Assembly: GCA_938023035.1 (NCBI GenBank) | Contig: CALIDI010000019.1 | Span: 1 to 32,676 of the forward strand | Origin: an uncultured Leptolyngbyaceae cyanobacterium | GTDB taxonomy: Bacteria; Cyanobacteriota; Cyanobacteriia; Leptolyngbyales; Leptolyngbyaceae | DNA length: 32,676 bases | Direction of reading: 5' to 3' | Part shown: positions 5,932 through 20,694 of the stretch, piece after piece | Position numbering within the stretch: position 1 is the first letter of the stretch | Layout: every line of letters starts with the position of its first letter | Position numbers and translations under genes: made by a program | Notes under the pieces: generated by a model | What the model was told of the DNA's origin: nothing | The model's input: only the letters and a program-made list of their open reading frames with translations | Databases searched by the model: none

Positions 5932-6927
5932 ATGCCGCTTATCACCGTGCGTCCCGAAGGACTTTACTGCGAAATTGGTGACTTTTTCATTGACCCGTGG
6001 CGAGCCGTCGATACGGCCCTGATTACCCACGCCCATGCTGATCACGCCCGCGCTGGTTCTCACCTCTACGTGGCCACGCAGATCTCTGAAGGCATTCTTA
6101 AAAAGCGACTGGGTAGTCAGATCCAGTTTCAGGGTGTGGAGTATGGCGAACCGCTCAAATTTGGTAATATCTGGGTTTCTTTCCATCCCGCTGGGCATGT
6201 GCTTGGTTCGGCGCAGATTCGAGTCGAGTATAAAGATGAGGTTTGGGTGGTGTCGGGCGACTATAAGCGATGTGTTGACCCCTCTTGTGCCCCCTTTGAA
6301 GTGATTCCTTGCCACACTTTTATTACAGAGGCAACTTTTGGCTTACCAATTTACACCTGGCAACCAGGAGCTACCACTGTTAAACAGATTTATGATTGGT
6401 GGCAGAGCGATCGCGATCGCCCCTCCCTGCTGTTTTGCTATGCTTTTGGCAAAGCTCAACGAATTTTGGCCGAGTTAACTCAGTTCACCGACCAGACTGT
6501 TTATCTCCATGGGGCCATTCATAGCTTGACTGAGAGCTATCGCACCGCCGGGGTGAGCATGATTCCAACCCTGTCTACTTCAGACCAGCCCCGTAGCTAC
6601 AAATTTAAGGGCGATTTGATTTTGGCCCCACCCTCGGCCCACCGCTCTAGTTGGATGAAGCGCTTCTCTCAACCGCAGACGGCCTTTGCCTCAGGATGGA
6701 TGGCCGTGCGGGGGGCACGGCGGCGACGCGGCTACGAGCGGGGGTTTGTCCTCTCCGACCATGCCGATTGGCCGGGGTTGGTGCAAACAGTACGCCAAAC
6801 CAAGGCGCAGCAAGTCTACGTGACCCATGGGCAGTCCGAAGCGTTGGCCCGTTATCTCACCGAACAGTATGGTTTGGAGGCCATGCCCTTAAAAACCCTG
6901 TTTGAAGGAGAAGGCGATATTGAATAA
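5932..6927 (+). CDS. Ligase-associated metallo-beta-lactamase exonuclease
   Basis: The 331-residue product is a metallo-beta-lactamase/beta-CASP type nuclease of the kind named ligase-associated DNA damage response exonuclease, often annotated as an mRNA 3'-end processing factor. The HxHxDH zinc motif is at residues 33-38 (HAHADH). Further metal and active-site segments are FHPAGHVLGSAQ, VVSGDYKR, ITEATFGLP, LSDHADW and VTHGQSEAL. In many bacteria this gene sits with an ATP-dependent DNA ligase, an Lhr-type helicase and a PdeM phosphoesterase as a DNA repair set. Here the ligase is 1.6 kb downstream on the same strand, with an ion channel between. No helicase or phosphoesterase of the set is in the window. 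The ATG at 5932 gives the expected N-terminus. Assignment of the family is firm; the in vivo DNA substrate is inferred. Confidence 0.9.
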   Translation: MPLITVRPEGLYCEIGDFFIDPWRAVDTALITHAHADHARAGSHLYVATQISEGILKKRLGSQIQFQGVEYGEPLKFGNIWVSFHPAGHVLGSAQIRVEYKDEVWVVSGDYKRCVDPSCAPFEVIPCHTFITEATFGLPIYTWQPGATTVKQIYDWWQSDRDRPSLLFCYAFGKAQRILAELTQFTDQTVYLHGAIHSLTESYRTAGVSMIPTLSTSDQPRSYKFKGDLILAPPSAHRSSWMKRFSQPQTAFASGWMAVRGARRRRGYERGFVLSDHADWPGLVQTVRQTKAQQVYVTHGQSEALARYLTEQYGLEAMPLKTLFEGEGDIE

Positions 6928-7032: not shown

Positions 7033-8505
7033 ATGTTAGTCGAAAAAAGACAACCTCGATTACCCAGAACAACGCTAATCTCTGCATCACCAGGCATTCC
7101 ACTCAAGGTGCGCATTGACCGCTTTCTGCATGCACCAGGTACAGAGGTGGCACTGATGTTGCTTATTTTGCTGTCGGTGGTAGTGGTGGTAGCAGAGCTG
7201 CTGCTCGGCCAAGAGAGCCTCCTGCGGCGGCAGCTAGAAGTGGCAGAAAGTTTGATTACGCTGATTTTTGCGGTTGAGCTATCGCTCCGCTATTTCACAG
7301 CGCGCAAAAAACGTCGGTTTTTTCGCCACTACTGGCTAGATATTCTGGCGGTGGTACCGTTTTTCTATTTGCATCGGCTCCTACGGTTGCTGCGGTTGCT
7401 GCGGTTGCTGCGATTAGGGGTACTCCTTAACCGTAATTTGAATCGGGTTTCTTCGGTATTTGCCGCTGGCTTGAGCGCGCAATTAGGATTGTTTGTTTTG
7501 ATTGGGTTGATTATCTTATCGGGGGCGATCGCGATCTATCTGCTTGAGGGTAACGATAATGAAGACTTTACTTCCTTCAAAACGGCCCTTTGGTGGAGTT
7601 TCTTTACCCTAGTCGCGGCTGAGCCGATTGGGGGTGAACCCAATACGGATGCGGGTAAATTCGTTACCCTGATTGTGATGCTGGGCGGCCTGACGATGTT
7701 TGCCGTCTTTACAGGTTTGGTTTCGGCAGTGATGGTACGGCAGCTCAAAACAGCAATGGAGGTCACCTATTTGGAATTGGATGAACTGCGGAACCATATT
7801 GTGATCTGCGGTTGGAACCGCAGCGCCCACCTGTTGATTGAAGAACTTCAAGCCGACCCCCAAATTAAACATTGCCCGATTGTGATTGTGGCAGAAATGG
7901 AAGAACCCCCTGCTTATCAGATGCGGCAGGTAGATCGTTCCCAGTTGTTCTACTATCAGGGCGATTACACCATGATTGATGTGCTAGAAAGTGTGGGAAT
8001 TTACTACGCGGGTCGTGCCATCTTACTAGCAGACTCTACCCACCCGCGCAGCGATCAGGATCGGGATGCCCGCACGGTGCTGGCTGCACTCACAATTGAA
8101 AAGTTAAATCCAGCAATCTACACCTGTGCCCAACTGCTCGATCGCAAAAATGATGTGCAGTTACGTTCTGCTGGGGTTGAGGATGTGATTGTGGCGGATG
8201 AGCTAGCCAGTCACTTGATTGCCACTTCTGCCCGTAACTTGGGAGCAGTGAATGTTTTGTCAGAGTTGTTGACCGTTCAGGTAGAGAACCAGTTCTACCA
8301 GGTCAATCTGCCAGAGTCTTGGACAGGGCTAACGTTTTGGTGCGCCACTCAAAAACTGAAGGATGAATACGATGCCATTCTGGTGGCGATTGATCGGCGG
8401 GTGAACGAGCATCGAGAAACGCTGGTTAACCCAGATAAGGAGATTCTGTTGCAATCGGGCGATCGCCTCGTCATAATTGCACGCGCCTTTCCACTCTTAC
8501 GGTAG
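7033..8505 (+). CDS. Voltage-sensor-like ion channel with RCK (TrkA-N/TrkA-C) domains and unusual pore
   Basis: The 490-residue product is a membrane channel subunit. Residues about 33-210 hold an S1-S4-like block and a two-helix pore domain; residues about 250-490 hold a cytoplasmic RCK domain, with a Rossmann-type start RNHIVICGWNRSA and a TrkA-C-like end. The S4-like helix has Arg at 115, 118, 121, 124 and 127, a strict every-third pattern, encoded partly by three perfect copies of the 9-mer CGGTTGCTG (7384-7410). The pore loop reads FFTLVAAEPIGGEPNTDAGK. Aligned on the P.T.AGK tail, AAEPIG takes the place of TVGYGD, so the K+ filter is missing. Plant CASTOR/POLLUX channels also combine RCK domains with a non-TVGYG filter, and phrases such as FTGLVSAVM and the RNHIVICGW start resemble them. 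Ion selectivity is therefore open. The ATG at 7033 follows GAGGG; the stop is 13 bases before the ligase start. Confidence 0.88.
   Translation: MLVEKRQPRLPRTTLISASPGIPLKVRIDRFLHAPGTEVALMLLILLSVVVVVAELLLGQESLLRRQLEVAESLITLIFAVELSLRYFTARKKRRFFRHYWLDILAVVPFFYLHRLLRLLRLLRLLRLGVLLNRNLNRVSSVFAAGLSAQLGLFVLIGLIILSGAIAIYLLEGNDNEDFTSFKTALWWSFFTLVAAEPIGGEPNTDAGKFVTLIVMLGGLTMFAVFTGLVSAVMVRQLKTAMEVTYLELDELRNHIVICGWNRSAHLLIEELQADPQIKHCPIVIVAEMEEPPAYQMRQVDRSQLFYYQGDYTMIDVLESVGIYYAGRAILLADSTHPRSDQDRDARTVLAALTIEKLNPAIYTCAQLLDRKNDVQLRSAGVEDVIVADELASHLIATSARNLGAVNVLSELLTVQVENQFYQVNLPESWTGLTFWCATQKLKDEYDAILVAIDRRVNEHRETLVNPDKEILLQSGDRLVIIARAFPLLR
7375..7410 (+). repeat. In-frame 9-bp tandem repeat encoding the S4 Arg-Leu-Leu array
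   Basis: Three perfect copies of CGGTTGCTG occupy 7384-7392, 7393-7401 and 7402-7410. A degenerate copy (CGGCTCCTA, 7375-7383) precedes them, and the pattern fades into CGATTA after. Each unit adds one Arg-Leu-Leu turn, so copy-number change would lengthen or shorten the charged helix without a frameshift. Confidence 0.9.
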
Positions 8506-18173: not shown

Positions 18174-19844
18174 ATGTTGATTTTCATGAATGTTGCGTTC
18201 ACTGGGCTAAGTCGCTGGCTGCAAGACCGGCCTTTGATTGTCGCGAACCCACTCACCTCTGCACCCCAGGCTGGGCAACTGAGCGCAGAAATCGTTGCTC
18301 AACTAGCAACGACCCTTACCATTTTATTGCTAGTAGCCACCGGGGTTGCCCTTGTGTCTCGCCGGTATCGACTGCCCTACGTTACCGGGTTAGTGTTAGC
18401 AGGGTTGGCTGTCACTGGCCTTCTGCCCCGCCCCCTGCGGCTGGATTCTGCCTTGATTTTGAACTTGCTATTGCCGATTCTGTTGTTTCAAGCAGCCGTG
18501 AATACGGATGTGAGTCGTCTGCGCAGCACAATCAGACCGATTAGTCTGTTGGCTGGGCCGGGCGTTGCGATCGCCTCTGGCATTACTGCGGTCGTTCTCA
18601 AATTTGCCCTGAATCTAGACTGGCTCCCCGCCCTGCTCGTAGGAACCATTCTGGCAATTACAGACACGGTTTCAGTGATTGCCGTGTTTAAAGAAGTCGC
18701 TGTACCCAGTCGCCTATCTACGATCGTTGAAGGCGAAAGCCTGTTCAATGACGGTGTTGCGTTAGTGCTGTTTAGCTTATTTTTACAAGTTTATACCAAT
18801 GGCTCGATTCCCGTTTTAGACGGGCTGCAGCAACTACTGCTTGTGATTGTGGGTGGGGTGCTGCTGGGTCTCGCGATCGGTTCCCTCTGTGTTGTGCTCT
18901 TTGTGGCCCTCTCTGACGACCCCCTCAGTGGTATTTTGTTGACCGTTGCAGTCGCTTTTGGCACCTATCAGACGGGGCAATGGCTACAGGTATCGGGAGT
19001 GGTGGCAGTCGTGGTTGCTGGTCTCACAGTTGGCAACCGCGGTTTAAATCAAGCAATCTCTGCATCTAGCAAAATTACCCTGCTCAACTTTTGGGAATAC
19101 GCTGATTTTTGCGTCAATACGTTTATTTTTCTGCTGATTGGGCTAGAGGTTGACCCCTCACTGCTCTGGAGAATTATTCCTGCCGTTTTGCTGGCGATTT
19201 TGGCCTATCAAATTGGGCGTATCTTATCGGTGTATCCGCTCATCGCCCTGTCTAATCGGTTTGATCTGCCGATTCCTCTGCGCTGGCAGCATGTTTTGTT
19301 TTTGGGCAACATTAAGGGTTCCCTTTCAATGGTGCTGGCTCTAAGTCTACCCGTCACTCTGCCAGGGCGCAGCGATTTGATTGCCCTGGTCTATGGGGCG
19401 GTGTTTGTCTCACTCATCGGTCAGGGGCTGAGTCTCCCCTGGTTGGTTAAACGTTTGAAAATTACAACCATTTCAGAATCACGGCAACAAATCGAAAGGC
19501 TACAGTCTCAACTGATTGCTGCAAAGGCGGCCCAAAATGAGTTAGCGGTACTGCATCACACTGGGGTTTTATCGAAGGCGCTGTATGAGGAGATGCGCTC
19601 GACCTATCAACTTCAAGTAGCTGAGGCCGAAAATATGCTGCGCGATCTCCACAATCGTCGCCCAGATTCACTCACGGGCAATCCTGGCAGAACTTCAAAA
19701 CTCAATGCCGTCCGCCGTCGCTTGCTGATGGTAGAGCGCAGTGCTTTAAACGATGCGGCGCGAAAGCGCATTATCTCCGAAGATGTCATTATCCCCCGTT
19801 TACAGGCGATCGACTATCAGTTAATGAGTTTGGAGGATGAGTAG
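18174..19844 (+). CDS. CPA1-family Na+(K+)/H+ antiporter (NhaP/NhaS-like)
   Basis: The 556-residue product is a monovalent cation/proton antiporter of the CPA1 type in the plasma or thylakoid membrane. About 12 hydrophobic segments cover residues 40-425. The conserved transport site is GESLFNDGVALVLF, with the Asn-Asp pair, and the preceding ILAITDTVSVIAVFKE segment is typical. The C-terminal 120 residues are hydrophilic with heptad-like helices (ESRQQIERLQSQLIAAK, then LYEEMRSTYQLQVAEAENML), a cytoplasmic tail that is likely regulatory. Two ATGs, at 18174 and 18186, are both possible and neither has a clear ribosome binding site. It is divergent from the nuclease gene and convergent with a TrkA-like gene that may also serve cation balance. 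Cation preference cannot be told. Confidence 0.9.
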   Translation: MLIFMNVAFTGLSRWLQDRPLIVANPLTSAPQAGQLSAEIVAQLATTLTILLLVATGVALVSRRYRLPYVTGLVLAGLAVTGLLPRPLRLDSALILNLLLPILLFQAAVNTDVSRLRSTIRPISLLAGPGVAIASGITAVVLKFALNLDWLPALLVGTILAITDTVSVIAVFKEVAVPSRLSTIVEGESLFNDGVALVLFSLFLQVYTNGSIPVLDGLQQLLLVIVGGVLLGLAIGSLCVVLFVALSDDPLSGILLTVAVAFGTYQTGQWLQVSGVVAVVVAGLTVGNRGLNQAISASSKITLLNFWEYADFCVNTFIFLLIGLEVDPSLLWRIIPAVLLAILAYQIGRILSVYPLIALSNRFDLPIPLRWQHVLFLGNIKGSLSMVLALSLPVTLPGRSDLIALVYGAVFVSLIGQGLSLPWLVKRLKITTISESRQQIERLQSQLIAAKAAQNELAVLHHTGVLSKALYEEMRSTYQLQVAEAENMLRDLHNRRPDSLTGNPGRTSKLNAVRRRLLMVERSALNDAARKRIISEDVIIPRLQAIDYQLMSLEDE

Positions 19845-19986: not shown

Positions 19987-20694
19987 CTAGACCTGCGACT
20001 CTGGCAAAGGCTTTGAAGGGAGACATTCTTGTAAAAAATCGATCACAGGATGCAACGACTCTGGTTTAGTTGCAACTAACACAGTTGAATTGGGTTCTAG
20101 CACGGTTGTGCCATTGGGGATCATCAAATTCAGGTGGGGATAGGGTTGATAACCAATGATCAGGGAATTTGCTGGAAACCGAGAGTCTTGGGCAATTTCT
20201 GCCAGGTTGCGACCAACAATATGGCACTGAGATGGAATGGCGAGTTTAAGGACTTCAATTTGTCCTTGTTCAAAATGCATCATGGATTCTACCTGGGGAT
20301 ATTCCACTGCATTCACCATTGTTGATACAGTCAAATCAATAGTGCTGATGATGCGATGGGCACCGGCATGGCGCAAGGGTAGTTCAAAATCGCGATGCCG
20401 CATTCGGGAAATGATTTGGGGCACCTCGTAATGCCGGGCCAAAGAGACAATCGCCAGATTCAGAGCATCATGCCGTAGGGCTGCACAGACCACATCGGCT
20501 TTGCGAATCCCCGCCTCGGTTAAAACTTCTGTGCTGACTGCGCTGCCCTCAAAAGCCATGACTCCGAGGCGATCGCGCACATAACGACAGGCAGTTGGGT
20601 CGATATCGACCATCGCTAAGGTGTGTCCCAGTTTGATCAAGTTTTGCGCTAAGGTCAACCCAATCAATCCAGCTCCACAAATCAAGATGTACAT
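19987..20694 (-). CDS. TrkA/RCK-domain NAD-binding protein (K+ transport regulator-like)
   Basis: The 235-residue product has one full RCK unit. The N-terminal Rossmann fold starts MYILICGAGLIGLTLAQNL (GAGLIG nucleotide-binding loop), with the acidic residue MVDID at the end of strand 2. The TrkA-C domain follows from about residue 145 (QIEVLKLAIPSQCHIVGRNLAEI) and ends near TVLVATKPESLH. There are no membrane segments, so it is a soluble subunit that gates a separate channel or transporter, as TrkA/KtrA do. The neighbouring CPA1 antiporter ends 142 bases from it in convergent orientation; a partner K+ transporter is not in the window. It is distinct from the RCK domain fused to the channel at 7033-8505. 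The ATG at 20692-20694 gives the expected start. Confidence 0.88.
   Translation of the reverse strand: MYILICGAGLIGLTLAQNLIKLGHTLAMVDIDPTACRYVRDRLGVMAFEGSAVSTEVLTEAGIRKADVVCAALRHDALNLAIVSLARHYEVPQIISRMRHRDFELPLRHAGAHRIISTIDLTVSTMVNAVEYPQVESMMHFEQGQIEVLKLAIPSQCHIVGRNLAEIAQDSRFPANSLIIGYQPYPHLNLMIPNGTTVLEPNSTVLVATKPESLHPVIDFLQECLPSKPLPESQV

Follow-up and report, generated by a model that had tools for sequence, protein, structure and literature searches.

The window analysed here is a stretch of 32,676 nucleotides from an uncultured Leptolyngbyaceae cyanobacterium (contig CALIDI010000019.1, positions 1 to 32,676). It encodes a 490-residue protein whose plan is six helices, a pore loop, and an RCK domain (Table 1). 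The gene is flanked on one side by that of a metallo-hydrolase, which we take to be the "ligase-associated exonuclease", and on the other by an ATP-dependent DNA ligase gene.

Table 1. Features of the channel gene and other reading frames of the window
Feature	Position	Strand	Basis
Complete channel gene (490 aa; 6TM with voltage sensor, pore, and RCK domain)	7033..8505	+	ORF, translation, Pfam
S1 helix, aa 35-57	7135..7203	+	AlphaFold2 model, mean pLDDT 61
S2 helix, aa 63-89, with charge-transfer-type F79, E82, R86	7219..7299	+	Model; residues in 31/31 orthologues
S3 helix, aa 93-107, with D103	7309..7353	+	Model; D103 in 31/31 orthologues
S4 arginine ladder R115, R118, R121, R124, R127	7375..7413	+	Translation; orthologue counts
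S5 helix, aa 141-172	7453..7548	+	Model
Pore helix, aa 182-195	7576..7617	+	Model; W187 in 31/31 orthologues
Selectivity filter AAEPIG, aa 195-200, replaces TVGYGD	7615..7632	+	Translation, alignments
S6 helix, aa 206-242, with family-specific T221, F223, A232, M234	7648..7758	+	Model; class-specific positions
Single RCK domain, aa about 252-485	7786..8487	+	Pfam; PDB matches to MthK and BK
Metallo-hydrolase beside the channel gene	5932..6927		RMMBL match; sub-cut-off Lactamase_B match
Cation/proton-antiporter-like ORF	18174..19844	+	Named by eye
TrkA-like two-domain ORF	19987..20694	-	Named by eye

Pfam finds Ion_trans (4.4e-21; 75.6 bits, above the cut-off of 25) and, also above their cut-offs, Slo-like_RCK (1.1e-11) and TrkA_N (4.6e-10), and a match to Castor_Poll_mid (4.5e-05) that at 23.8 bits lies below the cut-off of 26.7. 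The Ion_trans fold, with S1-S6 and the P-loop in order in the model, places the protein in the voltage-gated-like ion channel superfamily, and the RCK/TrkA_N domain behind S6 places it among the RCK-containing channels. An earlier note on this DNA had described a voltage-sensor-like RCK channel, and the Pfam domains and conserved S2, S3, and S4 residues bear out an RCK channel with voltage-sensor-type S1-S4. The closest solved structures by profile and sequence are KvAP, BK, and MthK. An AlphaFold2 model, a monomer built from seven sequences and silent on filter geometry and assembly, shows the six membrane helices, pore helix, and RCK domain (mean pLDDT, 61; pTM, 0.35). Its residues from about 30 to 237 fit SthK chains with an rmsd of 3.5 to 3.9 A over 184 to 199 residues. 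Full-chain matches to Slo1 and Slo2 gave an rmsd of 15 to 20; because the domain packing is uncertain, we set that superposition aside and kept the transmembrane match.

The filter and its conservation

In the translation, W187-W188, F191, and T192 precede the filter, residues A195 A196 E197 P198 I199 G200 stand in for TVGYGD, and P203, T205, and A207 G208 K209 lie behind it. We refer to channels with this kind of filter as EP channels and to relatives with a TVGYGD-type filter as GYG channels. A profile alignment of the two has no gap in the filter region, so that E197 aligns with the first glycine of the canonical filter and P198 with its tyrosine. The in-register replacement without length change that the earlier note had read from the window protein is borne out by this alignment and by homologues that share the motif. 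The same note had named two observations that would speak against it. One, a normal filter elsewhere in the protein, is not seen in the translation, where inspection by eye found neither GYG nor GFG; the other, homologues with TVGYG at this position, has no instance among the orthologues, although such channels do exist as a separate sister group at roughly 21 to 33% identity.

We aligned 31 distinct orthologues, 11 cyanobacterial and 20 from Myxococcota. Thirty have the filter [A/S/G]EPxG, so the window protein is no isolated case; one (L066) has ADPVVG, and TVGYG occurs in none of the 31. Glutamate stands at position 197 in 30 of 31 (aspartate in the other), P198 is invariant, and G200 is present in 30, with position 199 occupied by I (22), V (5), T (2), L (1), or M (1). 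At these three positions the 30 EPxG rows use different synonymous codons (E197 is GAG in 16 and GAA in 14, and four codons each are used for proline and glycine), which points to selection on the protein and not to recent copying. Chance and frameshift as origins of the filter are ruled out by the conservation in 31 orthologues together with these synonymous codons.

Eleven loci added later (L099 to L109), which stand outside the 31-row counts and some of which may duplicate genomes already counted, all keep EPI. One of them has VEPISG (L100) and another has alanine at P203 (L105), which shows that neither G200 nor P203 is strictly required. L109 is truncated, its frame starting near residue 92. 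A looser relative, L067, left out of the 31-row counts, has the filter ATQPTPD and sits on a long branch at the base of the EP channels; it is possibly an intermediate or a case of independent decay.

Might such a filter still select for K+ in an unconventional way? In its favor, the pore helix around the filter is retained, as are P203, G208, and a glycine of S6, G219. All six filter positions differ from TVGYGD, however, with a proline and an acidic side chain introduced, and no such change occurs in 30 canonical paralogues; we consider retained K+ selectivity very improbable.

EP channels were surveyed in even draws of genomes from cyanobacteria and Myxococcota, with at most 4 candidates scored per genome in the cyanobacterial sample and 8 in the Myxococcota sample, and the resulting counts are lower bounds. 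A separate contig scan with a single protein query detects close relatives only, and the host range given here is that of these two phyla. Orthologues are present in at least 6 of 386 cyanobacterial genomes (the window genome itself, the others at 53 to 67% identity), the next-best match in that sample being a different protein at 31%, and in at least 20 of 188 Myxococcota genomes, with L067 in one more. EP channels occur in at least 2 of 42 genomes of the window's order and in at least 14 of 29 of the order that holds Thermosynechococcus-like genomes, where the 15th match is a TVGYGD protein. The Thermosynechococcus-like genus has one in all 11 genomes sampled, once as a shortened frame; we infer that the genus is Thermosynechococcus from its close fit to named loci (L006 to L008) in the tree. 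Plasmids and viral contigs yielded no relative at the limits used.

A literature search, which reached few subscription journals, found no account of a channel family with an EP filter among the papers listed. The SynK channel was found by a search with the filter pattern T-X-G-[YFL]-G-D, according to the accessible text of that report (PMC2853561), and a search of this type would miss the EP filter. EP channels probably make up a bacterial channel class that has not been described so far and that conducts cations other than K+. The suggestion of a poorly described cyanobacterial class that keeps a voltage sensor holds for the sensor and for the searched literature, but not for the host range, given the counts in Myxococcota.

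Pore, voltage sensor, and phylogeny

We called a position class specific if its residue is found in 90% or more of EP channels but in no more than 10% of GYG channels. Eleven positions qualify: three in the filter (197, 198, and 200), four in S6 (221, 223, 232, and 234), and four in the RCK stretch (252, 351, 356, and 383). The voltage sensor, S5, and the pore helix contribute none. The filter and S6 thus have 7 class-specific positions among 47, compared to 4 among 400 elsewhere (Fisher test, 2e-5, with kinship among rows ignored), and those 47 positions also contain 11 of the 67 that are at least 93% conserved. As read from these alignments, the pore has changed as a unit and the sensor has stayed.

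The charge pattern of a voltage sensor (F and E in S2, D in S3, and an arginine repeat in S4) is found across the EP family, with F79, E82, R86, and D103 each in 31 of 31 orthologues. The five S4 arginines recorded in the earlier note are present in the translation; among orthologues, R124 is kept in 31, R118 in 30, R127 in 29, R115 in 23, and R121 in 19. Position 121 is proline in seven EP rows, and the pattern degenerates in one cyanobacterial branch. The view that this S4 is more regular than most does not hold: arginine occupies each of these five positions in 28 to 30 of the 30 TVGYGD paralogues, and R115 and R121 are less kept in EP channels, so a five-arginine S4 is not unusual. Some orthologues lack part of the S4 charges, so gating by voltage may not extend to the whole family.

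These 30 GYG rows are RCK channels longer than 440 aa, a length that serves as proxy for the label "six-helix", and all have the filter G(Y/F)GD, without exception. In a tree of 86 rows calculated by a quick method without the filter columns, the 30 EPxG rows, L066, and L067 fall on one branch (SH-aLRT, 97). Rows dropped beforehand were the duplicates L043 to L045; L002, L003, L012, L042, L047, and L048; and the second frame of L009. A tree of 62 rows, calculated by a careful method without the filter and S6 columns, has the EP channels (L067 among them) and the 30 GYG channels as two sides of one branch, with support of 78/97, which is short of the highest grade, and presence in 82% of 200 bootstrap trees. 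The cyanobacterial EP members form one branch, fully supported in the 86-row tree and at 100/99 in the 62-row tree. Canonical homologues inside the EP clade were looked for and none was found; the TVGYGD relatives form a separate group. A single filter change between the two groups is likely. We infer that the K+ filter came first from its spread, the tree being unrooted and giving no direction.

Other departures from the canonical filter were seen among shorter proteins. Three of the dropped rows, L002, L042, and L047, are RCK proteins of about 360 to 370 aa with the filters GVGFGE, SVGYGE, and TVGYSE. A second deviant-filter group consists of 11 cyanobacterial rows (L024 to L026, L029 to L033, and L035 to L037) of 357 to 391 aa, matched from the pore through the RCK domain, on one fully supported branch. 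Their filter, TL or AL followed by [MV][GA]EYP[DE]KP, is two residues shorter than TVGYGD and resembles the CNG-channel filter TIGETPPP quoted in the available portion of PMC5052707.

Gene neighborhood

Among 24 loci compared, the ligase neighbor of the window gene recurs solely in L111, from the window's family, and no conserved operon was found in cyanobacteria. The two cyanobacterial branches have no immediate neighbor in common among the loci compared, and the immediate neighbors in Thermosynechococcus-like loci differ from those in the window.

In Myxococcota, exbB lies directly downstream on the same strand in 6 of 20 EP loci (L117, L118, L119, L123, L124, and L126), counting among the 20 two whose sequence stops less than 150 bases past the channel gene, too soon for the downstream side to be judged (L132 and L136). 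Behind exbB, exbD is found in five of the six loci and a tonB-type gene was matched in four, where the contig of L123 ends inside exbB and that of L117 soon after exbD. All six also have a divergent upstream gene, head to head with the channel, which encodes 298 to 374 aa where read as an ORF, has a membrane-anchor-like N terminus by eye, and gives at most weak, sub-cut-off TPR matches; among the other 14 EP loci, L128 has a weak match to it about 2 kb from the channel. None of exbB, exbD, tonB, or the divergent gene was matched in 32 paralogue loci, all checked for a TVG(Y/F)GD filter and some of them short (L166, 4.0 kb; L167, 353 bases downstream), a difference for exbB with a Fisher value of 0.002 when kinship is ignored. 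For the neighbor comparison itself ORFs were picked mechanically, and in several loci an antisense frame was taken, e.g., over the channel in L126 and L128; the exbB result therefore rests on tblastn. The link concerns part of the family only and is compatible with a possible involvement of the channel in the uptake of ions or metals.

The exbB link, together with the loss of the K+ filter, could also be read to mean that EP proteins are non-conducting voltage or ligand sensors, i.e., regulatory membrane proteins acting alone or, in some Myxococcota, with ExbB/ExbD. A dead pore should drift, whereas the filter and S6 hold 7 of the 11 class-specific positions along with their share of the conserved ones, and a search of nine cyanobacterial loci and of the window stretch gave no ExbB/ExbD match. 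We regard a non-conducting sensor as unlikely.

A predicted cation pore and its known relatives

The best explanation, and from the sequences a fairly probable one, is that EP channels are voltage- and RCK-regulated cation channels that are not K+ selective and have a ring of four glutamates. Four copies of the gene product would assemble into a cation channel with the layout of BK, in which S1-S4 would form the voltage sensor, S5-P-S6 the pore, and the single RCK domains a cytoplasmic gating ring. TVGYGD and [A/G]EPIG would have been exchanged in this lineage without a change in length, S6 changing alongside. The four E197 side chains, one per subunit, would line the pore where a K+ filter has its first glycine and provide a high-field cation site instead of backbone-carbonyl K+ sites, and the channel would be gated by voltage and by an RCK ligand. 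Altered selectivity is soundly predicted from the filter, and we would expect with reasonable confidence that the channel is not K+ selective; that divalents permeate it is a possibility we place somewhat short of even, the sequence being compatible with divalent and with non-selective permeation alike. Gating by voltage appears evenly balanced, and gating by an RCK ligand is moderately favored. The fullest version is a separate bacterial class of BK-shaped, voltage- and RCK-gated channels for calcium or another divalent metal, derived from a K+ channel whose filter and S6 were replaced and cooperating, in some Myxococcota, with the ExbB-ExbD-TonB energy-coupling system in ion import; we offer it only tentatively.

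An EP subunit might instead join TVGYGD subunits in a heteromer and alter their selectivity. A second long RCK channel match is present in 12 of the 20 EP-bearing Myxococcota genomes, with TVG(Y/F)GD in those examined. The window genome has three other matches, one in a frame of 370 aa (covering 207-482), one in a frame of 280 aa, and one in a frame of 798 aa (251-339 only), and none has the 6TM-RCK form, which speaks against a heteromer; we hold it to be quite improbable.

The EP and GYG sister groups, which have the sensor and RCK plan in common and in which filter and S6 change together, would offer a natural experiment on the interconversion of a K+ pore and another kind of pore. If divalents do pass, bacteria would have in the EP channel a calcium-type channel that is gated by voltage plus ligand and does not belong to the NaChBac/CavMr family. 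Being small and present in all sampled genomes of the Thermosynechococcus-like genus, it would also be usable for structural work. To our knowledge, the NaChBac/CavMr family has no RCK domain.

The nearest paralogues are the Myxococcota TVG(Y/F)GD RCK channels longer than 440 aa, which have a BK/Slo-like plan and share with EP channels the voltage-sensor domain, pore, RCK domain, and S4 positions; they differ in their filter, in the residues at 221, 223, 232, and 234, and in having no exbB-exbD-tonB match nearby. MthK and BK (Slo1) share the RCK gating domain, and BK also the voltage-sensor domain, but both are K+ selective in their filter. Each BK subunit carries two RCK domains. The Ca2+ ligands of MthK are D184, E210, and E212; the latter two align to Q367 and L369 of the window protein and the place of D184 is uncertain at a gap. 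With E210 and E212 not kept, MthK-type Ca2+ gating is not expected.

Two other bacterial channels bear on the filter. NaKTs of Tsukamurella, a K+-channel relative with the proline-rich, non-canonical filter LPMGNGPLSP, is non-selective; according to the accessible text, it differs from EP channels in being 2TM and in a quoted filter that has no acidic residue, and its authors knew of no further channel resembling it in sequence from their search (PMC5052707). CavMr, of the NaChBac kind, is likewise a voltage-sensor channel with a filter glutamate, but its filter, TLEGWVD, belongs to a different family; the window translation has AEPIG and no TLExW. In the part of the source available, a mutant of CavMr whose filter carries a single negative charge retains a PCa/PNa of 144, while NavPp, with three acidic filter residues, is blocked by Ca2+ and is not Ca2+ selective, so that acidic residues alone are no proof of Ca2+ permeation (PMC7041947).

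The earlier note had drawn a parallel with the plant CASTOR/POLLUX channels. A search for their family (PF06241) in 178 Myxococcota genomes gave matches in 45, over the cut-off in 35. Of 21 bacterial CASTOR-type rows, made up of 20 loci of this search (L171 to L190) and L097, all except L185 carry D[P/S/A/T]G in the filter (e.g., LTDPGYLGDD, TLDSGTMGGD, and LTDPGNMAQD), and in a profile alignment the aspartate sits two positions before E197. EP channels have neither this motif nor the plant AD[SA]GNHA; their acid comes two positions later and is followed by proline. Acidic filters are thus seen, in these profiles, in two separate RCK branches and at different places.

That EP channels might themselves be bacterial CASTOR/POLLUX Ca2+ channels is suggested by matches of the RCK part to CASTOR and DMI1 chains (4e-13 to 2e-11), by the Castor_Poll_mid match, and by an acidic filter without TVGYG in both. 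The domain match is below its cut-off, however, the acid is shifted, and in local profile comparisons EP channels are nearer to GYG channels (7e-83 over 461 columns) than to the CASTOR type (6e-31, with GYG against the CASTOR type at 6e-34); we reject this membership as hardly tenable. The parallel stands as an analogy, in that both lack TVGYG, and not as close kinship. In the portion of PMC6697748 available, plant CASTOR is an RCK-gated, Ca2+-selective channel without TVGYG that, like its relatives POLLUX and DMI1, shares RCK regulation and an acidic filter residue with EP channels; it differs from them in its four predicted membrane segments without an S4 sensor and in its distant profile and filter, ADS(A)GNHA. 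Its filter mutant D265N abolishes current (PMC6697748); among the precedents, this Ca2+-selective channel best supports the view that Ca2+ can be what an acidic ring in an RCK channel stands for.
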